Below are positions 26,305 to 37,660 of a stretch of 64,000 nt of DNA, one piece after another. The DNA is from Planktothricoides sp. SR001 (GTDB lineage: Bacteria; Cyanobacteriota; Cyanobacteriia; Cyanobacteriales; Laspinemataceae). The stretch is from the NCBI RefSeq assembly GCF_001276715.1, contig NZ_LIUQ01000004.1:157657-221656 (forward strand). The letters are read 5' to 3'. The position numbers and the translations under genes were made by a program. How positions within the stretch are numbered: position 1 is the first letter of the stretch; each line of letters starts with the position of its first letter. Below the pieces are notes generated by a model. That model saw nothing but the letters and a program-made list of their open reading frames with translations, ran no database searches and had not been told where the DNA came from.

Positions 26305-28692
26305 ATGAACAATAAACGTGAAATATTAGATTACCTATTCCAAACGGGTCAAATTGACATTAAACGAAGCAAAATATTTCACCTAGATTTATCTCCCATG
26401 CCTCCATCTTTTTTTGACTTTGACCGAGTTGAAGGGATGATGTTAGGGTTGGCGATCGGCGATGCTTTGGGTGTGACCACAGAAGGAATGCTGCCCCGAT
26501 ATCGCCACACGATTTCCGGTTCCTTTCAACGCACCCAACAACAAATTGATAAGTCTCATCAGAGAAATATTCGGGACTATGCTAACCAACCCTTGCAGAA
26601 ACCAAATAATCATTATTGGGAAATTCGCGATTATTTGCCTAACAAATATGCGAATAATCAGTGTATTGGTATACCATCAGATGATACCCAAATGGCTTTC
26701 TGGACTTTGGAACAAGCGATCGCTGATGGGGGATTTAATCCAGAAAACCTCGCAGAACGATTTAACCAAAATCGCATCTTTGGCATCGGTTCTACGGTGA
26801 GAAAATTTCTGATTAATTACCAATGTCATCAACCTTGGTTTGAATGTGGGATTAAGTCCGCTGGCAATGGGGCTTTAATGCGGATTGCCCCGATGCTAAT
26901 TCCCCATTTAAAATTCGGTAAATCTGACCTTTGGGTGGATACGGCATTGTCAGCGATGTTAACTCACAATGACTCTGGATCCATTGCGGCTTGCTTATCG
27001 TTTATCTATATGCTTTGGCAGCTTTTAACGATGAAAACCCCGCCTAAACCTGAGTGGTGGTTGAATACTTATATAGAAATTGCTCGTGATTTGGAAATTG
27101 ACAGTAGTTATTGTTTCCGGGGCGGCGCTTTTCTGAATTATCAGGGGTCTATTTGGCAGTTCTTGGATGAACAAGTCCGCGAGGCTTATCGGCAAAATCT
27201 TTCGGTGATTGATGCTTGTAATCAATGGTATTCTGGGGCTTATCTCCTGGAAACTGTTCCCACGGTTATTTATATTTTAATGAAACATGGGGATAATCCA
27301 GAAGAAGCGATTGTGAGAGCGGTGAATGATACTGTTGATAATGATACGGTAGCGGCAATTGTTGGGGCAGCAGTTGGGGCTTTACACGGGAAAGATCGAC
27401 TGCCGCAACGGTGGATCGCTAATTTATCCGGTCGGACTAAAGAAAATGATGATGGGCGGGTCTTTGAGTTGTTAAAAATGGCGCGAAAAGTTTGGTGGGA
27501 TTCGACGATCCCAAATCCGTCGATGAATGTGTTAGTCAAGACGGCTCAACTTCTAGCAGCAAAACCCTCTAAATTATCAGAAAAAACCCCGGAAGTTCAG
27601 CCGCCATTATCCCAGGATTTAACGGCGAAAGCGCCGGAAAAAACTATCTCAGAATCAGCCCAAAATACCGAGGATGCGGCGTTAGGTTGTTTCCTCGGCG
27701 CGGTGGTTGGGGATGCTGCCGGTGGAGTGTTGGAATTTATCAATCGGTCAGCGACCCCAGAAGAAGTTGATCGGGCGATGAGAATGTGTGGCGGTGGTAT
27801 TTGGAACCTCACCCCAGGACAAGTTACAGATGATACGGAATTAGCGATTTGTTTAGCGCGGGCTTTGTGCCTTAGTCCGACTTTTGACCGAGAAAATATT
27901 GCCCGCAGTTATGCGAAATGGATCGAGTCTGAGCCCTTTGATATGGGTTTAACCACTTATCGGTCTTTGGGCTGTTTTGCTCAAAGTCCTACCTGGCGAG
28001 AAATTTGCCAAAAACAAGGTTATGCAGCGGGAATGAGTCAGGCAGCAGCTAAGTTTTGTATGGAGTCAAAAGCGAATGGCAGTTTGATGAGAATTGCCCC
28101 TTTGGGGATTTGGGGATATCGATTAGATGATGCAGAATTAGCCCAGTATGCTCAAGAAGATTGTCGGTTATCTCATCCTCATCCAACTTGTTGTGATGCG
28201 GTGGCTTGTTATACGATCGCGATCGCTTCTTTAATCCGCGAACCAGGCGATCGGCAAACTGCTTTTGAACGGGCAGAACGTTGGGCGATTTCTTATGCGA
28301 ATGCGGAGGTACGCGGTTGGTTAGAAAAAGCCCGTTTAAACTTGCCAGTTCTCTATTATCCTCAAGCGGGTTTTGTGAAAATTGCCTTTAGTCATGCTTT
28401 CCGACATTTAATTAAAGGCAGTAGTTTTGTGGAGGCGATCGCAGAAACCCTATTTGGTGGAGGAGATACGGATACAAATGCCTGTATTGTTGGCGGTTTA
28501 CTGGGGGCAGCTTGTGGGGCTGGTTCTATTCCTAAAACGGCGATCGCTCCGGTTTTAAATTGCGATACGGAACAAGGAATTCATCCTCGACCGGCGTTTG
28601 TTCATCCCCGTCAAGTTCCTGAATTGGTGACATATTTATTGCGCGATCGCGCATCCGCGCCGCTACGCGATCGCTCTACCACAATAAATTAA
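26305..28692 (+). CDS. Double-domain ADP-ribosylglycohydrolase
   Basis: ADP-ribosylglycohydrolases (DraG/ARH family) remove ADP-ribose from proteins or nucleic acids using two metal ions. This 795-residue protein carries two complete copies of the fold. Copy 1 (about residues 45-385) has MMLGLAIGDALG, SDDTQMAFW, NGALMRIAPM and DNDTVAAIVGAAVGALHG. Copy 2 (about residues 455-765) has GCFLGAVVGDAAGG, TDDTELAICLA, NGSLMRIAPLG and GGGDTDTNACIVGGLLGA. Acidic metal ligands are present in both copies. The linker near residues 415-450 is Pro/Lys/Ser rich. Most family members have a single domain, so the fusion is notable. It lies beside a STAND/Cdc48-like locus. Confidence 0.92.
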   Translation: MNNKREILDYLFQTGQIDIKRSKIFHLDLSPMPPSFFDFDRVEGMMLGLAIGDALGVTTEGMLPRYRHTISGSFQRTQQQIDKSHQRNIRDYANQPLQKPNNHYWEIRDYLPNKYANNQCIGIPSDDTQMAFWTLEQAIADGGFNPENLAERFNQNRIFGIGSTVRKFLINYQCHQPWFECGIKSAGNGALMRIAPMLIPHLKFGKSDLWVDTALSAMLTHNDSGSIAACLSFIYMLWQLLTMKTPPKPEWWLNTYIEIARDLEIDSSYCFRGGAFLNYQGSIWQFLDEQVREAYRQNLSVIDACNQWYSGAYLLETVPTVIYILMKHGDNPEEAIVRAVNDTVDNDTVAAIVGAAVGALHGKDRLPQRWIANLSGRTKENDDGRVFELLKMARKVWWDSTIPNPSMNVLVKTAQLLAAKPSKLSEKTPEVQPPLSQDLTAKAPEKTISESAQNTEDAALGCFLGAVVGDAAGGVLEFINRSATPEEVDRAMRMCGGGIWNLTPGQVTDDTELAICLARALCLSPTFDRENIARSYAKWIESEPFDMGLTTYRSLGCFAQSPTWREICQKQGYAAGMSQAAAKFCMESKANGSLMRIAPLGIWGYRLDDAELAQYAQEDCRLSHPHPTCCDAVACYTIAIASLIREPGDRQTAFERAERWAISYANAEVRGWLEKARLNLPVLYYPQAGFVKIAFSHAFRHLIKGSSFVEAIAETLFGGGDTDTNACIVGGLLGAACGAGSIPKTAIAPVLNCDTEQGIHPRPAFVHPRQVPELVTYLLRDRASAPLRDRSTTIN

Positions 28693-29128: not shown

Positions 29129-30517
29129 TTAGCGTTGCTGACTACCTTCGCCGCAACTTCTCACATATTCCCGAAAAACGGGAGACAAATTAAACCGGAC
29201 TTTTTCCCCGGTAATTTTCCTGACTAAATACCGTTTTTGCAAAGATTGCAACCCCTGAATCAATTCCATTGAGGACAAATCTAAAGCTTGAATTAAATCT
29301 TCTCTGGTGACAGGTTGGTCAAATTTACTCAAGGCTAAAATAACTTGCTTTTCTATGGGGGATAATCGGTTGAATAATTGCGGCAAAGGCATATCCTGAG
29401 TAATCAATAAGTGATTTTCCCCTAAAAAATCTGCCACCTGACCATCAAAAATATTTTTAATTAAACCCACCACATTTTTTAAATAAACCGGATTTCCTTC
29501 ATATAACTTGATTAAGTTTAACCAACTTTCCTCATTTTTTAACCCTGTACCTTTCAGCAGTTCCACATCATTTAAACCGGATAAGTCTAAAGACTTAATC
29601 GGATATAATTCCCGATCCCAACATTCCATTTCGGCACATTGTTCTTGACTGATTAAAATCAGGGTGCTTTGATGTTCAATTTCGGTGATGAGTTTGAAAA
29701 AGTTTTGATAATCTTGATATTTAGGTTGATATTGTCCGGCAAATTCCCCCGGCAAAAAGATATTTTGCACGTCATCCAGGACAATTAAACATTTTTTCTC
29801 CGTGAGTAGATCCAGTAGTTGTTTTAGGCGATCGTCAATGGTTGATTTTGCTTCTACTTGGCAAACTTGCAATAAATCTTTAGTCAGTAATTCTAATGAT
29901 TTGGGGTATTTTAAGCTTTTCCAGATGATGATTTCAAAGTTAGATAAGGTGCGATCAATCAGCCGCTTCACGAGAGTGGTTTTGCCAATTCCACTAACTC
30001 CTAATACGGCAACTAAACGAGTCTTTTGATTAAATATCCAATCATCCAGGGTTTTCAGGTCAGAGTCTCTGCTATAAAAATTAATCACTTGCGGCGCTAG
30101 GGTTAAATCTAGAAGCGGGGATTTAGATTTAGGATTGCTATCACTTTCCTGGAGATGGTTTGTTGGACTGCCTTGATTTAATGTGGGTGGATTATACAAA
30201 TTATTATTACTGTTATTACTGTTATTACTCTCATAAATATTAGAATTATTGCATGAATTAATATATATTCTTTCTATCGTAGAAATAAAATTAGTTTTTT
30301 TTATATCTTCACCTAATGCTTTTGATAAAACTTGCCATAATTCAGACCCCACATCAGCGACATAATTTTTACTGACATGGCATTTTTCGGCGATTTGATC
30401 GTAACTTTGTCTATCCCATGTACCCTCAACAATAGCCTTTTGAACATGATCTAAATGCTTACTTGTTTGTTTTACTACTAGGCGATCGACCAATTGTAAC
30501 ACTTCGTTTACATCCAT
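29129..30517 (-). CDS. STAND ATPase with N-terminal vMAP-type HTH, divergent from the Cdc48-like operon
   Basis: This 462-residue protein is paralogous to the one at 2067-3437. Residues 1-85 form the HTH module (MDVNEVLQLVDRLVVKQTSK, then ELWQVLSKALGED). Residues 90-135 are an Asn/Ser-rich linker. The STAND NTPase has Walker A GVSGIGKT (173-180), Walker B LIVLDD (244-249) and a GNPV motif. A winged helix (LSPIEKQVILALSKFDQPVT) completes it, with no repeats or fused effector. Its start is separated from the Cdc48-like gene by a 255-base divergent promoter that contains six boxes of the kind also found before its paralogue. I infer an ATP-switch transcription regulator of the neighbouring operon and probably of itself. 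Confidence 0.87.
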   Translation of the reverse strand: MDVNEVLQLVDRLVVKQTSKHLDHVQKAIVEGTWDRQSYDQIAEKCHVSKNYVADVGSELWQVLSKALGEDIKKTNFISTIERIYINSCNNSNIYESNNSNNSNNNLYNPPTLNQGSPTNHLQESDSNPKSKSPLLDLTLAPQVINFYSRDSDLKTLDDWIFNQKTRLVAVLGVSGIGKTTLVKRLIDRTLSNFEIIIWKSLKYPKSLELLTKDLLQVCQVEAKSTIDDRLKQLLDLLTEKKCLIVLDDVQNIFLPGEFAGQYQPKYQDYQNFFKLITEIEHQSTLILISQEQCAEMECWDRELYPIKSLDLSGLNDVELLKGTGLKNEESWLNLIKLYEGNPVYLKNVVGLIKNIFDGQVADFLGENHLLITQDMPLPQLFNRLSPIEKQVILALSKFDQPVTREDLIQALDLSSMELIQGLQSLQKRYLVRKITGEKVRFNLSPVFREYVRSCGEGSQQR

Positions 30518-30546: not shown

Positions 30547-30652
30547 ATTATAGCGTATCTCGATCCTAACTTTTCCGATTTTTTCCGATTTTTTCCGATT
30601 TTTTGCTTAATATTTTGTTACAAAACTGCCGATTTTTTCCGATTTTTTCCGA
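30547..30652 (-). promoter_or_regulatory. Divergent promoter with 10-bp-period TCGGAAAAAA boxes
   Basis: On the minus strand, two groups of three TCGGAAAAAA-type boxes are seen. On the plus strand the CCGA cores start at 30575, 30585, 30595 and at 30629, 30639, 30649, exactly one DNA turn (10 bases) apart within each group. A minus-strand TATAAT (30552-30547) lies between the boxes and the STAND gene. The region is shared with the rightward operon starting at 30773. Regular helical spacing favours cooperative binding on one face of the DNA. Confidence 0.65.
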
Positions 30653-30702
30653 GAGACTAAATGCTTAAAGCTTTGGCATAGTAGTGACAGACAAAGCGGC
30701 AT

Positions 30703-30724
30703 TATCAAAAAAGTTTTTTTGATA
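30703..30724. promoter_or_regulatory. TATCAAAAAA-TTTTTTGATA palindrome before the Cdc48-like operon
   Basis: A 10-base perfect inverted repeat with a two-base centre ends 49 bases before the ATG at 30773. It could be an operator in the rightward promoter or the stem of a terminator separating divergent transcripts. No -35/-10 pair was found with confidence. Confidence 0.4.
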
Positions 30725-30772
30725 TACAGATTCATTTAACCAGGTTCCGTATTTTTACGCAAATAACTAAGT

Positions 30773-32905
30773 ATGGTACTACAAGATACACAAGTTAATA
30801 GCTGTCGGGTGTTTGCTTACCACCCCAAACACATCGGAAACAACATTGTGTTAATGTCTCCATCAATGTATAACCAGCTACGTGAAACCAGTGGTAATGA
30901 ATATTTCTTTGTGGAAATTACCCCTATCAATGGCGAAAATAAAGCTTACGGTTTTGCTTGGTATGAGGATAATGAAAAGTTTCAAAGTGATTCAACTTAT
31001 ATTGGGTTGGAATCACCGTTGATGGATACCTGTTTGGTCAACGTTGATGATGTAGTTACCATGAGAGTTTTGCCATCTAGGGAAATTGAAACAGCCGCCA
31101 GCGTTGAGTTACAAGTTATTGGAGATAGTGTCACCAAAATTCATACAGAAGATGATCTGCAAAAGCTGAAAAATAGAATTGCCGGGGGTGACGTTGTTTT
31201 AGGGCAAAACACCCGCTTTCTGGTTCCCTTTTCTGATATTGGGGCAACTTATTGGATTAGCTTACGGGTTGTTAATACGGAACCGGCTAACGTACCTGTT
31301 AAATGTAATGAAAAAACAACAATTACCTTTGATGGAGTCTCAGTTAAACCAAGACAGGCAGACGTTAGTTTTGAAGATGTCGGTGGGTTAAAAAAACAAA
31401 TTGACTTGCTGCGGGAGGTAATTCAATTACCTTTAGAACATCCAGAAATTTTTCCTCAGCTAGGTATTCATCCCCCCAGAGGCATTTTGCTCTATGGGCC
31501 GCCGGGTAATGGTAAGACTATGTTAGCTAGGGCTTTAGCCAATGCAATTCAAGCTAATTTTTATACCGTTAACGGCCCAGAATTAATGTCTAAGTTCGTG
31601 GGGGAAGGTGAGAAAAAAATTAGGCAGGTGTTTGAAAAGGCTAAACAAAACGCTCCGAGTATTATTTTCTTTGATGAAATAGATTCATTTGCTGGTAAAA
31701 GGGACTCTTTTACCGCTGAGTTTGAAGTGCGGATTGTGGGTCAATTGCTTTCCATGATGGATGGATTAGCAGACCGGGGTAATGTGATTATTATCGCGGC
31801 AACGAATCGTCCGAATGCGATCGATCCAGCTTTACGGCGACCGGGAAGATTTGACAGAGAAATCGAAGTAGGTTTACCTTCAGAATCGGATCGATTAGAT
31901 ATTCTCTCAAAATATGTTAAACAAATGAATCTTACCCCCGATGTTGATTTAGCATCCTGGGCGAAAAAAACATCGGGATATGTGGGGGCTGATTTAGCCG
32001 CTTTAGCGAGAGAAGCTGTAATTCGTTGCTTACGGCGAGTTTTTGCGCTCTCATCAGAAGGTCATTATCAACAATCTGCACCAATCGTTGTTACTAATGC
32101 GGATTTTTATGACGCATTTAAGGAACTACAACCGACCACCTTAAGGGATGTCAATCATCAATTTAATCTTTTGAGTTGGGATGAACTCTTGGGAGTAGAT
32201 ACTCTGAAAGAAAGATTGCTCAACTTAGTTGAGACACCCCTGAAATATCCAGATAAATTAAAAGCGATGGGGCTGACACCCCCCACAGGGATTATTTTAG
32301 TAGGTTCGTCTCAATCGGGGAAAAAATCCTTGGCTTTAGGGTTAGCACAAAAACTGGGGATTCAGTGTATTTCTGTCAGGGCTTTAGATTTTATTTATCA
32401 AGAGTCTAGTCAAGCGGGCAAAACATTAGGGGAAATTTTTCGTAAAGCCAGATTATCTTCACCGTCAGTGCTTTTGATTGACAAAATTGATTTGGCGTTT
32501 TCTTCTCAGTTAAGAAATACTACCGAAAGTTTCTTATTTGCGGAAAATCTCGTTGATGAGATTCGTCGCAACCGACTCTATGAGAATGTTTTTGTCATTG
32601 CTACAGCCAGAAGTCTGGAAAATTTACCGCAAATTTTACTGGATTCTTCAGTGTTTGGACATTTGATTAATATGCCAACTATTTCCAATCAAGATTTTGA
32701 ATTGCTAATTAAGTCCAAACTGAAAAATTACATTGACTCAGAGGTAAGTTATCCGGTTTTAGCTCAGTCCGTAGAAGGTTTATCTATTGGGGAGGTGATT
32801 TATGTTTGTGAAGAATGTCTGAGAATGTCTCTGACTCATGGCGAAATCACACCTAGCCATTTTCACCAGGCAGTCGCCACTGTTAAAACCAGTAAAAACA
32901 ACTGA
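30773..32905 (+). CDS. Cdc48-like double AAA+ ATPase with degenerate second ring
   Basis: The protein of 710 residues has the Cdc48/VAT layout. An N-domain (about 1-190) with VNSCRVFAYHPKHIG and VNVDDVVTMRVLP beta-barrel-like segments is followed by D1 (about 200-425) and D2 (about 465-660). D1 is complete: Walker A GPPGNGKT (242-249), Walker B IFFDEID (298-304), sensor AATNRPN and Arg fingers in RRPGRFDRE. D2 has an altered Walker A GSSQSGKK (511-518), a Walker B LLIDKID (567-573) in which the catalytic Glu is Lys571, and no Arg-finger motif, so it should not hydrolyse ATP. Cdc48 proteins unfold client proteins. Here the client adaptors may be the small zinc-ribbon proteins encoded downstream. 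First gene of the operon. Confidence 0.9.
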   Translation: MVLQDTQVNSCRVFAYHPKHIGNNIVLMSPSMYNQLRETSGNEYFFVEITPINGENKAYGFAWYEDNEKFQSDSTYIGLESPLMDTCLVNVDDVVTMRVLPSREIETAASVELQVIGDSVTKIHTEDDLQKLKNRIAGGDVVLGQNTRFLVPFSDIGATYWISLRVVNTEPANVPVKCNEKTTITFDGVSVKPRQADVSFEDVGGLKKQIDLLREVIQLPLEHPEIFPQLGIHPPRGILLYGPPGNGKTMLARALANAIQANFYTVNGPELMSKFVGEGEKKIRQVFEKAKQNAPSIIFFDEIDSFAGKRDSFTAEFEVRIVGQLLSMMDGLADRGNVIIIAATNRPNAIDPALRRPGRFDREIEVGLPSESDRLDILSKYVKQMNLTPDVDLASWAKKTSGYVGADLAALAREAVIRCLRRVFALSSEGHYQQSAPIVVTNADFYDAFKELQPTTLRDVNHQFNLLSWDELLGVDTLKERLLNLVETPLKYPDKLKAMGLTPPTGIILVGSSQSGKKSLALGLAQKLGIQCISVRALDFIYQESSQAGKTLGEIFRKARLSSPSVLLIDKIDLAFSSQLRNTTESFLFAENLVDEIRRNRLYENVFVIATARSLENLPQILLDSSVFGHLINMPTISNQDFELLIKSKLKNYIDSEVSYPVLAQSVEGLSIGEVIYVCEECLRMSLTHGEITPSHFHQAVATVKTSKNN

Positions 32906-32937
32906 TTATCGTATTGAAACAAAAGGAGAAAATTATC

Positions 32938-33657
32938 ATGGCTGAATTACCTAATGTTGGACGAGGAAATCAAAGCCAAAGACTCAATAACCCAGCACAA
33001 AAGCAAACACAAACACAACTGCAATTTAACTTGCAAATTTGTGATGATACCTGGGAACGCTTGCTTTGTGCCTTAGAACGACTGGAATATGTAGCTGAAT
33101 ATAAGGCTAATTATGCTATTCCTAGTGCTGTGGCGACTCGATTAGATCGCCATAAAGACAAGGGAAATATTCAAGAATCTCAAATCGAAGTTGAATTGGA
33201 AGTTCAACTGCAAATTCAGGCTTTCAAATATATTGTCAAAACAGTACAGAGTGAAGCCGAGACCTGGTTGTTACAAGACTTTATTTCTTGGTTAGCTGGA
33301 CGTGAACGCAAAAATATCAAACCTGAGCCTTTACCTTTAAGTATTGTTGATGACTATGCAATTCCTGTTTTGCAATGTATTTTAGGTGAGTCATTTAATT
33401 TACCAAAAATACCACCTGTTCCAGTTAATCAACAAGACGTTTTAGGCGCTGTTACACAATTAGGATCCGATCAAATAGAAACTGATAATATTCTAAAACG
33501 TTTTCAAGACGATCCTACTCTGAAAGCTACCCAAAATTATCATCCTCGCGGTGAATTTAAAGATGGGATGGAACGATTACAAGCGATCGCAGAAACCCTC
33601 AAACAAAAACCTTGGTTTGAACGTTTTGTGAAGGAACAGCGTTGGCAAAATCGCTAA
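32938..33657 (+). CDS. Unrecognised 239-residue protein in the Cdc48-like operon
   Basis: I chose the ATG at 32938 (MAELPNVGRG) because AGGAG lies just upstream. The first 30 residues are Gln/Asn rich and probably disordered. A helical core follows (ICDDTWERLLCALERLEYVA), then a Glu-rich strand-like segment (IEVELEVQLQIQAFKYIV), then a Pro-rich part near residues 150-170. No metal or NTP motif is visible. It lies 32 bases after the ATPase gene and 16 bases before the first zinc-ribbon gene, so it belongs to the same transcript. A scaffold or adaptor role is only a guess. Confidence 0.75.
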   Translation: MAELPNVGRGNQSQRLNNPAQKQTQTQLQFNLQICDDTWERLLCALERLEYVAEYKANYAIPSAVATRLDRHKDKGNIQESQIEVELEVQLQIQAFKYIVKTVQSEAETWLLQDFISWLAGRERKNIKPEPLPLSIVDDYAIPVLQCILGESFNLPKIPPVPVNQQDVLGAVTQLGSDQIETDNILKRFQDDPTLKATQNYHPRGEFKDGMERLQAIAETLKQKPWFERFVKEQRWQNR

Positions 33658-33673
33658 AAATTTTGTTGAAACC

Positions 33674-33994
33674 ATGACAACTTACTACGATCTTTTCATT
33701 CGTTGTCCCGCCTGTATTTATCGGGGCAAAACAGGCGGTATTCCTTCTTATTGGTATCACAGTGATTGCGGAGGAAGACTAGAAGTTGGTGATAATGCTT
33801 GCTATCGCTGTTCGTGGTGTGGTTACACCAGTCATATCAAAAACTGGCGATATGCTTGTAAATCTCATCAAGGTAGTTATTGGGATACTAATGCTGACCA
33901 ATTTGCTAGTGCATCTGCTATGGCGGCTCAGGTGATGAATATTGGGGGACGACAATGGCTTCTTAATCTCCTCTGTAATTTAGGGGACTGGTAA
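33674..33994 (+). CDS. Zinc-ribbon protein, tandem paralogue 1
   Basis: This 106-residue protein has a CPAC pair (Cys11, Cys14) and a CSWC pair (Cys46, Cys49), the four ligands of a zinc ribbon. Between them is a conserved WYHSDCGG element (His29, Cys32). After the ribbon comes SHIKNWRYAC, a low-complexity helix, and a C-terminal QWLLNLLCNLGDW. The next two genes encode the same design, and the fourth a reduced version. The C-terminal QWL-LL-NLGDW motif is a candidate docking peptide for the ATPase. Confidence 0.82.
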   Translation: MTTYYDLFIRCPACIYRGKTGGIPSYWYHSDCGGRLEVGDNACYRCSWCGYTSHIKNWRYACKSHQGSYWDTNADQFASASAMAAQVMNIGGRQWLLNLLCNLGDW

Positions 33995-34028
33995 TGACTT
34001 ACTCTATTAATTTAAGGATGAACTAAAA

Positions 34029-34352
34029 ATGGCTACTTACTATGATCTTAAAATTCGCTGTCCAGCCTGCATTGCCGATGGAGAGTCTGGAGGGGCAGTA
34101 TCTCAATGGTATCACAATAACTGTGGTGGTAAAATTCAAATTGGAGATGATGCAAACTATAAATGTATTAAATGTAACTATTCCTCTCATATCAAAAATT
34201 GGCGATATGCTCATGAAGGTTATCATACTGATTATCGTCCCACCACTTCTGCCCACTTTGCTAATGCTATTTCTACAGCGGGTCAGGTGGCAAGTGTCGC
34301 AGGCAAACAATGGCTTATAACCTTGCTGGAAAACTTAGGAGATGATTGGTAA
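34029..34352 (+). CDS. Zinc-ribbon protein, tandem paralogue 2
   Basis: The 107 residues follow the same plan as the preceding gene: Cys11/Cys14 (CPAC), WYHNNCGG, Cys46/Cys49 (CIKC), SSHIKNWRYA and a C-terminal QWLITLLENLGDDW with one extra Asp. The gap to the previous gene is 34 bases and contains AAGGATG. Length and spacing indicate tandem duplication followed by divergence, since the middle segments differ considerably. Confidence 0.82.
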   Translation: MATYYDLKIRCPACIADGESGGAVSQWYHNNCGGKIQIGDDANYKCIKCNYSSHIKNWRYAHEGYHTDYRPTTSAHFANAISTAGQVASVAGKQWLITLLENLGDDW

Positions 34353-34390
34353 ATCATGTCATCAATTATTACTTTCAGGAGTGATTAAAC

Positions 34391-34732
34391 ATGGCAACTT
34401 ACCATGATTTAGTCATACAGTGTCCTGCTTGTGCTAGCGAGAGAGGTTATGATTGTAAACCACCACGTCAATGGTATCACGCCTCTTGTGGAGGAGCAAT
34501 TCTAATAGGCGAGAATGCTTATTACAGATGTGTCGGCTGTGGTCATTCATCTCATGTTAAACATTGGCGTTATGCTTGTCACATAAATGTAATGGATGAT
34601 CGACCGATTAGAGATGAACGTTCTGCTTCATCGGCTTACTTGGCTAATGTATTTTGTATATCTGGGAAATTGACAAGTCGGGCAGGCAACCAATGGCTTA
34701 TAACCTTGATGGAAAACTTAGGAGATTGGTAA
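34391..34732 (+). CDS. Zinc-ribbon protein, tandem paralogue 3
   Basis: This 113-residue protein has Cys11/Cys14 (CPAC), WYHASCGG, Cys47/Cys50 (CVGC), SSHVKHWRYAC and the C-terminal QWLITLMENLGDW. It carries insertions after the first Cys pair (ERGYDCKPPR) and in the region before the C-terminal motif. CAGGAG lies 12 bases before the ATG. The four Cys ligands are intact. Confidence 0.82.
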   Translation: MATYHDLVIQCPACASERGYDCKPPRQWYHASCGGAILIGENAYYRCVGCGHSSHVKHWRYACHINVMDDRPIRDERSASSAYLANVFCISGKLTSRAGNQWLITLMENLGDW

Positions 34733-34787
34733 ATGATTTATTTCAATTATTCTGTTTATTGCAAAAATCAGGAGAATTATTACCACC

Positions 34788-35108
34788 ATGTCTGAAGAAC
34801 CAAACATACAAATCCATAACTTAATTGCTCGTCATCCTGATGAATTTTCATTAGCACCTTATCAATGGCTACATCATCAATGTGAAGGTAATCTTCAAAT
34901 CAGTAATGATGGCACAATTAGCTGTGAAAAGTGCGGCGTCAAACAACCTGCATCAACTTGGTGTATTACCGACAATAAGCATTTATCTGAGTCACCACCA
35001 GAAGTTAAGCCCCTTGATTTTCCAGCATTATCAGCCTTAGCTGGTCAATTAGCAAGTACCGCTGGTCCTCAATGGTTAAAGGAATTTTTAAGCAATATTG
35101 AAGATTAA
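34788..35108 (+). CDS. Degenerate zinc-ribbon protein, tandem paralogue 4
   Basis: The 106 residues align with the preceding three but the first Cys pair is gone (LIARHPDEF in place of the CPAC region). WLHHQCEGN, the second pair CEKC (Cys46, Cys49) and the C-terminal PQWLKEFLSNIED remain, and the terminal GDW motif is lost. It can no longer form a normal four-Cys site unless it uses His and Cys32. It may be a subfunctionalised or inactive member. CAGGAG precedes the ATG. Last gene of the operon; a repeat hairpin follows at 35131. Confidence 0.75.
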   Translation: MSEEPNIQIHNLIARHPDEFSLAPYQWLHHQCEGNLQISNDGTISCEKCGVKQPASTWCITDNKHLSESPPEVKPLDFPALSALAGQLASTAGPQWLKEFLSNIED

Positions 35109-35130
35109 TACTTGCGATGATATTTTACCT

Positions 35131-35159
35131 GTGGATTCCCGCATTCGCGGGAATGACAG
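35131..35159. repeat. ATTCCC(N8)GGGAAT hairpin repeat, copy 2
   Basis: Identical over its whole length, flanks included, to 1767-1795 (GTGG-core-GACAG). It lies 23 bases after the last gene of the Cdc48-like operon and could also act as the 3' end hairpin of that transcript. Confidence 0.85.
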
Positions 35160-35235
35160 GTTTAAGGATGTATCTGATGGTAATAACAGGTTTAAGGGTT
35201 TACCTAGTATAGTTATGCAACCATTATTATCATTG

Positions 35236-35329
35236 ATAGCGATCGCTGCATTCCAGTTTTGTCAGGGCGGCGTTTTGCATAAAGCCCCTACAGGATGCAA
35301 ATATGGGATGCTTCTATAGCGATCGCCTT
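35236..35329. repeat. 94-bp dispersed repeat, copy 1
   Basis: The sequence from ATAGCGATCGCTGCATTCC through GTTTTGCATAAAGCC to GGGATGCTTCTATAGCGATCGC is repeated at 36446-36539 with about eight substitutions. Both ends carry HIP1 sites. The two copies flank the PIN toxin-antitoxin pair and the gene at 36114-36359. Confidence 0.85.
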
Positions 35330-35381
35330 TCCCATTTCTTCCCATGATTGTCAGGAAAGGCGATCGATCAATAATAATAAT

Positions 35382-35792
35382 TCATCTCATTAATGCTTGA
35401 AACCCAGCTTGAACAAAATGCTTATCAAAAGTTAAAGCCCGACTCACTTTATTTTTTTTCATCACCACAAAAGAAACACAATCAACTAACCCATAAGATT
35501 TATCTTGATACTGTTTGTATAAACTTAATGCCTCTTCAAATAGATCGGGAGTTAAACGGATTACTTCAACATCATCAGAATCCAAAAAAGCCTCAATCAG
35601 TTCAACGGCCTCATATTTGTGATTGCTCGATAAAGCGTTACCAACCTCTAATAAAACTGCATCAGTTGTAATCAGGGGATAAGTTTCAAAGGCTTTAGCC
35701 AGTTCTAAAGCCTTTTGATGGTATTGATCTCGTTGATTAATCGAAGCAACAATAAACAATGTATCAACAAAAATCTTATCCCTCACTGACAT
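35382..35792 (-). CDS. PIN-domain toxin (VapC-like)
   Basis: The 136-residue protein has FVDTLFIVASINQRDQYH at the N-terminus (first catalytic Asp), LEVGNAL (Glu), and the C-terminal YGLVDCVSFVVM and FDKHFVQAGFQAL typical of PIN ribonucleases. The start MSVRDK at 35792 overlaps the antitoxin gene by 17 bases. An internal start closer to IFVDT would need a non-ATG codon. The role is RNA cleavage, held in check by the product of the next gene. Confidence 0.9.
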   Translation of the reverse strand: MSVRDKIFVDTLFIVASINQRDQYHQKALELAKAFETYPLITTDAVLLEVGNALSSNHKYEAVELIEAFLDSDDVEVIRLTPDLFEEALSLYKQYQDKSYGLVDCVSFVVMKKNKVSRALTFDKHFVQAGFQALMR

Positions 35793-35991
35793 CTCTCCCT
35801 AAACTCGCGCCGACTTGAATCGAGAAATTTTCCGAAGCATCAATTTTCACCTGGGTTAATTTTGACATTAAACTAGGTGGTTTAACCGAATCTTGATTGC
35901 CTGTCAATTCTTCGATCGCTTGATTGATTTGATTCAGTTGTTCTTCAGTTAAATTTTCTAGTCGTTCTTTAATCATTTGTTTTGTTGTCAT
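35776..35991 (-). CDS. Antitoxin partner of the PIN toxin
   Basis: A 71-residue protein encoded immediately upstream of, and overlapping, the PIN toxin gene. The N-terminal half (TKQMIKERLENLTEEQLNQI) is helical and charged. The remainder is polar with an acidic end. No clear DNA-binding motif is visible, but order and overlap are those of a type II pair. Confidence 0.8.
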   Translation of the reverse strand: MTTKQMIKERLENLTEEQLNQINQAIEELTGNQDSVKPPSLMSKLTQVKIDASENFSIQVGASLGRDVSEG

Positions 35992-36113
35992 AGTAATTTA
36001 CCTCAATTAACTTTTATACTGCTAAGATAGAAACCATCTTATCACAAGTAAGCGATTCCAGCCGCCCTCCGTTTGAGAACAGGCTGAGGGGCGATCGCTT
36101 TTATCTGTCCCCA

Positions 36114-37460: not shown

Positions 37461-37525
37461 GACATTGGCGATCGCTTAAGTAGACGGGCAGAAATAAATG
37501 CACCACAGACCCAATGAGAAAAAAA

Positions 37526-37556
37526 CTGTCATTCCCGCGCAGGCGGGAATCCACAG
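37526..37556. repeat. ATTCCC(N8)GGGAAT hairpin repeat, copy 3 (inverted)
   Basis: CTGTC precedes the core ATTCCCGCGCAGGCGGGAAT and CCAC follows, so this copy is inverted relative to 1767-1795 and 35131-35159. The eight central bases vary while both arms and flanks are kept. Confidence 0.85.
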
Positions 37557-37660
37557 CCTATCGGCGGGGAAAGAAAAGTGCAATTAATTATGTTCACCTA
37601 CTTACTTCTGTTAAATATTATATCGCGGTTATGGCAGCACTGGCCAACTCCCAAAAATTT

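Follow-up and report, generated by a model that had tools for sequence, protein, structure and literature searches.

Four paralogous zinc-ribbon genes at positions 33674-35108 of the window (the whole 64,000-nucleotide stretch of Planktothricoides sp. SR001 DNA analysed here) form the downstream end of an operon headed by a CDC48-type AAA ATPase and a middle protein. We tentatively propose that this operon is an exchangeable, probably conflict-type cassette, in which the ribbons would be adaptors of a CDC48-like unfoldase with one active ring. It would be a small uncatalogued cassette of three families (a CDC48-type unfoldase, a helical partner and a zinc-ribbon set), and the libraries searched contain no model of it. 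A preliminary description of this DNA saw the ribbons as diversifying recognition components with a shared docking peptide; judged from sequence, that interpretation is partly supported.

The ribbon genes and their operon

The ribbon genes ZR1 (33674..33994, 106 aa), ZR2 (34029..34352, 107 aa), ZR3 (34391..34732, 113 aa) and ZR4 (34788..35108, 106 aa) all lie on the plus strand, are separated by intergenic gaps of 34-55 bp and are the sole ribbon copies in the genome. ZR1-3, with pairwise identities of 43-55%, share the motifs CPAC, WYHxxCGG, CxxC and SHxKxWRYA and a C-terminal DW. ZR4, whose identity to these three is 25-33%, lacks CPAC, CGG, WRYA and the final W and keeps WxHxxC, CxxC and QWL. 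The preliminary description had correctly reported both the four tandem paralogues and this distribution of motifs, with the refinement that the tail is [GD]DW in ZR1-3 and [GE]-D-(D)-W in their orthologues, not strictly GDW. A profile built without ZR4 members matched ZR4 with an E-value of 5e-15 and its two orthologues with 2e-13 and 5e-12; the best of 900 shuffles against the same profile reached 0.6. By these scores ZR4 is a true homologue of ZR1-3, far beyond chance.

Eleven columns (M1, L7, P12, W27, H29, C32, C46, C49, G92, W95 and L96) are invariant in 8/8 ZR proteins from three genomes. H29, C32, C46 and C49 are spaced as H-x2-C-x13-C-x2-C; in one orthologue, the H is followed by two additional residues. 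Because ZR4 keeps these four potential ligands (H, C, C, C), it need not have lost zinc binding, and either ZR1-3 gained the CPAC pair or ZR4 lost it. The H-x2-C-x13-C-x2-C set of ZR4 could thus be a full potential zinc site, sufficient alone. No family in Pfam, NCBIfam, PADLOC or PHROGs covers the ribbons.

The ATPase (30773..32905, plus strand, 710 aa) consists of an N-domain and two AAA stretches, D1 and D2. Its nearest solved relatives are VCP-like ATPases. The N-domain has weak similarity to CDC48_2, below the Pfam cut-off, and the NCBIfam CDC48 model (TIGR01243) aligns over residues 14-685 with 470.7 bits, below the curated subfamily cut-off of 802.65. D1 contains Walker A GPPGNGKT, Walker B DE, RRPGR and an aromatic pore loop KFVG. 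D2 has GSSQSGKK and LLIDK and no RPGR, so that the T/S of Walker A and the E of Walker B are lost. The D2 changes are identical in the orthologue from the Roseofilum genome G046, which also keeps the aromatic D1 pore loop. Since the D1 motifs are intact and the D2 motifs are lost, ATP hydrolysis is expected in D1 and not in D2. The two orthologues are 64% identical overall, 45% in the N-domain and 79% in the D1 region. The middle protein (32938..33657, plus strand) has 239 aa from its ATG, with an alternative TTG at 32914, and is 60% identical to its orthologue in G046. It is matched by no Pfam, NCBIfam, PADLOC or PHROGs family, and its model is mostly helical, of low confidence (mean pLDDT 49) and too poor for a fold search.

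Distribution, insertion site and HTH-headed operons

Searches of 293 genomes of the order with the ribbon profile, with the ATPase N-domain and with the middle protein gave, for each query, matches in the same 3 genomes and in no other, namely the window's genome and two Roseofilum genomes (G046 and G148). When genome contigs were scanned with the middle protein, the sole matches were loci of Roseofilum acuticapitatum BLCC-M154 and Roseofilum halophilum BLCC-M91, and we take G046 and G148, respectively, to be these strains from the matching hits. The phylum sample gave no further ribbon carrier (386 genomes) and no further real N-domain carrier (377 genomes). In no sampled genome of the order or phylum did the ribbons occur without the ATPase operon, as the preliminary description had expected of partners of this ATPase. 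A narrow genome-contig scan with ZR2 gave no match; relatives of the ribbons were absent from viral contigs, phages and plasmids, and those of the middle protein from viral contigs. Several candidate relatives were rejected. Weak N-domain matches in G135 and G160 come from an unrelated 142-aa ORF without any ATPase (G160 inspected), the CDC48-type ATPases of G118 and G087 have neither this N-domain nor the partners, and plasmid CDC48 relatives lie in unrelated contexts in the five neighbourhoods inspected.

In G046 the gene order is ATPase, middle protein, ZR1 (L013:7758-8078), ZR2 (L013:8114-8443) and ZR4 (L013:8449-8787). The G148 locus looks decayed: residues 170-392 of the ATPase, the D1 core, are deleted, and a second deletion has removed ZR1 and joined the beginning of the middle protein to ZR2 as an in-frame fusion, leaving ZR4 intact (L014:4955-5293, minus strand). 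This decayed operon copy occupies L014:4955-7337. ZR3 is absent from both Roseofilum loci. The ribbon copy number is therefore 4 in the window, 3 in G046 and 2 in the decayed locus of G148. The preliminary description had proposed that number and diversity of the copies would vary; the number does, but diversification of the sequences is not supported.

Comparison of flanks with a genome of the same species (G011) showed that a segment at 30631..36089, which contains the entire operon together with a PIN toxin-antitoxin pair, is absent there. G011 has about 2.4 kb instead, with a radical SAM gene and others, between flanks that are 94-97% (left) and 96% (right) identical. Other small genes occupy the operon site in G012. 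The cassette is probably exchangeable, to judge from these comparisons. The divergent neighbour at 29129..30517 (minus strand) encodes an N-terminal HTH-like region and an NB-ARC STAND NTPase. We rejected it as a member of the system; because it is kept in the operon-less genomes G011 (same species) and G012 (same genus), it is a neighbour and not clearly part of the cassette. Adjoining it at 26305-28692 is a gene for a 795-aa protein with two ADP-ribosylglycohydrolase stretches, which is conserved in G011. The PIN toxin and its small partner gene lie at 35382-35991 on the minus strand; the operon has a PIN pair of a different type next to it in G046 and a PIN-like pair in G148. Membership of the PIN pair in the system is doubtful, as an operon-less Roseofilum keeps the same pair by the same neighbour gene. 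A dispersed repeat of about 128 bases at 37478-37605 has dozens of copies in same-species and same-genus genomes.

The window's copy adjoins the STAND gene, whereas the Roseofilum operon is preceded by a 159-aa HTH gene in divergent orientation. This HTH gene and its promoter recur in the sister genome G086 with 94% DNA identity, which ends at the start of the cargo. The cargo there is a ubiquitin-like conjugation operon, comprising a zinc-ribbon protein, a ThiF E1, a YukD-like Ubl, a UQ_con E2 and a JAB protein. No homology between ZR1-4 and the zinc-ribbon protein heading the E1 operon was demonstrated (20 columns only). Divergent HTH genes of 160-180 aa head Ubl-conjugation or E1 operons at L061 (G086:C110:3000-7774), L105, L092, L094 and L107. 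HTH relatives were found across the order, and 20 loci with about 56% identity or more (L092-L111) were inspected. A full conjugation operon of the G086 type lies upstream of the HTH gene at 1 of these 20 (G101), an E1 with small genes at 3 (G158, G012 and G183; one of them tested as E2-like), a small AAA ATPase with small proteins at 4, and a dynamin-type protein at 3 (one by Pfam, two by eye). Other cargo includes a KAP NTPase, a protein kinase, FHA plus caspase and a subtilase, and several loci carry unrecognised genes. Thus, the HTH gene looks like a general head of exchangeable operons. At the end of the HTH gene in G148 lies a 33-base piece from the 3' end of a peptidase gene, and 338 bases of the same gene likewise in G086; the coordinates concerned are L013:9702-9734 and L014:7935-7967. 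These pieces are a possible trace of insertion at the end of that gene.

Conservation of the copies and candidate roles

The tree and the identities pair ZR1, ZR2 and ZR4 of the window one to one with Roseofilum orthologues (71%, 70% and 51%), and ZR3, without an orthologue, joins near ZR2 on a long, uncertain branch. This orthology indicates that the copies predate the split of the lineages or, alternatively, predate transfer of the cassette between them. ZR1 and ZR2 are better conserved than the ATPase N-domain. The dN/dS values of orthologous ribbons between genera are 0.14-0.24, with synonymous sites near saturation, and that of ZR4 between the two Roseofilum is 0.24; all values are below 0.4 and none is near 1 in a comparison limited to three genomes, one of them decayed. 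By this measure ZR1, ZR2 and ZR4 are all under purifying selection, where the preliminary description had anticipated positive selection between diversifying copies. The orthology and low dN/dS of ZR4 indicate that it is an old conserved subtype and not a decayed copy. At the DNA level, ZR2 and ZR3 share about 55-75% identity through most of the gene; in the final ~55 bases, which run to just past the stop codon, identity rises to 97-100%. The near-identical tract is at 34300-34352 and 34680-34737. On this pattern the shared tail is a recent exchange or partial duplication. The C-terminal QWL segment is conserved, and the homogenised ZR2/ZR3 tail would fit constraint at this end but also chance exchange.

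CDC48 family proteins usually act via adaptors on the N-domain (PMC6017811), and this rule, together with the strict linkage of ribbons and ATPase, leads us to the adaptor reading. In the proposed mechanism, only the D1 ring would hydrolyse ATP and thread substrate, with D2 as a structural ring. Each adaptor would use its ribbon half to recognise its target, a protein or nucleoprotein, and its conserved C-terminal helix with QWL...[GE]DW to contact the machine or the helical 239-aa protein. ZR1, ZR2 and ZR4 would be fixed, non-redundant subtypes and ZR3 an extra. The cassette is probably one of the inducible modules that serve conflict or stress in multicellular cyanobacteria, because the HTH gene and promoter drive either this cassette or, in sister genomes, ubiquitin-like conjugation, and because HTH relatives head caspase, dynamin, KAP, AAA and kinase operons. 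Its rarity, the swapping at its site and the company of the HTH head suggest such a role. We infer adaptor role, tail docking and defence role alike. Several observations count against the proposal: the window's copy adjoins the STAND gene and not that HTH gene, the HTH family also heads operons without evident defence character, the operon is very rare and is decayed in 1 of 3 genomes, PADLOC gave no match beyond the AAA core, and the models of the ribbon and the middle protein have mean pLDDT values of 69 and 49. Few adaptors of bacterial CDC48 homologues are known, and the ribbons are therefore testable candidates. The HTH-headed exchangeable operons may offer a route to more conflict-type systems in cyanobacteria, including ubiquitin-like conjugation.

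Purifying selection across all parts and the fixed one-to-one subtypes would also suit a specialised remodelling function outside defence, in which the ATPase and its small partners would build, take apart or activate a single cellular complex, with the ribbons as structural subunits or target-binding parts; other bacterial CDC48-type ATPases occur in ordinary contexts, e.g. with gas-vesicle genes. We regard this as a serious but rather unlikely alternative, since so sparse a distribution (3 of 293 genomes, with the operon missing from same-species and sister genomes), together with the swapped site and one decayed copy, ill fits a housekeeping role.

It is unlikely that the ribbons are themselves the substrates or effectors, that is, small nucleic-acid-binding proteins that the ATPase would hold, unfold or release. 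NTPase chaperones have been proposed to deploy effectors (Kaur et al. 2020, PMC7159879), and the nearest solved relative of the ribbons by sequence, yeast Rfa1, has the same C-x13-C-x2-C spacing followed by NWRY, which would point to a nucleic-acid target. However, the Rfa1 match (E 0.048, ~40 residues) is below significance, and Pfam Rep_fac-A_C scores 15.8 bits (E 0.012) against a cut-off of 28.5. The ribbon model (mean pLDDT 69) has short strands in the ribbon part and two helices towards the C-terminus, at 74-82 and, with lower confidence, at 90-102. It matched no solved fold at E 0.001, the best non-significant matches being mostly ribosomal proteins. Membership in the RPA70 C-terminal domain was rejected, with no significant profile match and no fold match at E 0.001.

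Because the same HTH gene and promoter control either operon type in sister genomes, a one-ring Cdc48-like segregase with zinc-ribbon adaptors might work either downstream of ubiquitin-like conjugation in bacteria or in its place. If true, it would be a separate counterpart to the eukaryotic ubiquitin-Cdc48 link. We consider this improbable; the HTH gene heads varied exchangeable operons, so the link between the CDC48 operon and ubiquitin is no more than suggestive. Last, an arms race in which the tandem copies diversify as recognition parts could draw on their tandem arrangement, their variable number and the ZR2/ZR3 exchange, but orthologues at 70-71% beside an N-domain at 45%, and the low dN/dS, make it most improbable.

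Comparison with known systems

The classical AAA core of the ATPase gives PADLOC matches to IetA of the anti-phage system IetAS, but the operon has no IetS protease and the NCBIfam IetA model scores 152 bits against a cut-off of 510. The RPA70/Rfa1 C-terminal zinc ribbon shares the cysteine spacing and the following WRY, within a short and non-significant match. The NTP-dependent conflict systems of multicellular prokaryotes (PMC7159879) resemble the cassette in combining an AAA NTPase chaperone with small partners in filamentous cyanobacteria, and in their swappable operons, some with ubiquitin-like conjugation. They differ in that the window operon lacks MoxR, vWA, VMAP and DO-GTPase, and its ATPase is of the classical CDC48 type; a Pfam scan of all operon genes found no MoxR plus vWA and no DO-GTPase plus GAP1.

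Ufd1-Npl4 and similar proteins are zinc-containing Cdc48 adaptors. They serve as a working analogy only, one without an established sequence relationship, and the operon has no ubiquitin-like gene. Compared with the CDC48/p97/VAT family, including actinobacterial Cpa, the ATPase has lost its D2 motifs, has a private N-domain and is in an operon with zinc ribbons. It shares with that family the order N-domain-D1-D2, VCP-like nearest solved relatives and an adaptor-dependent logic.
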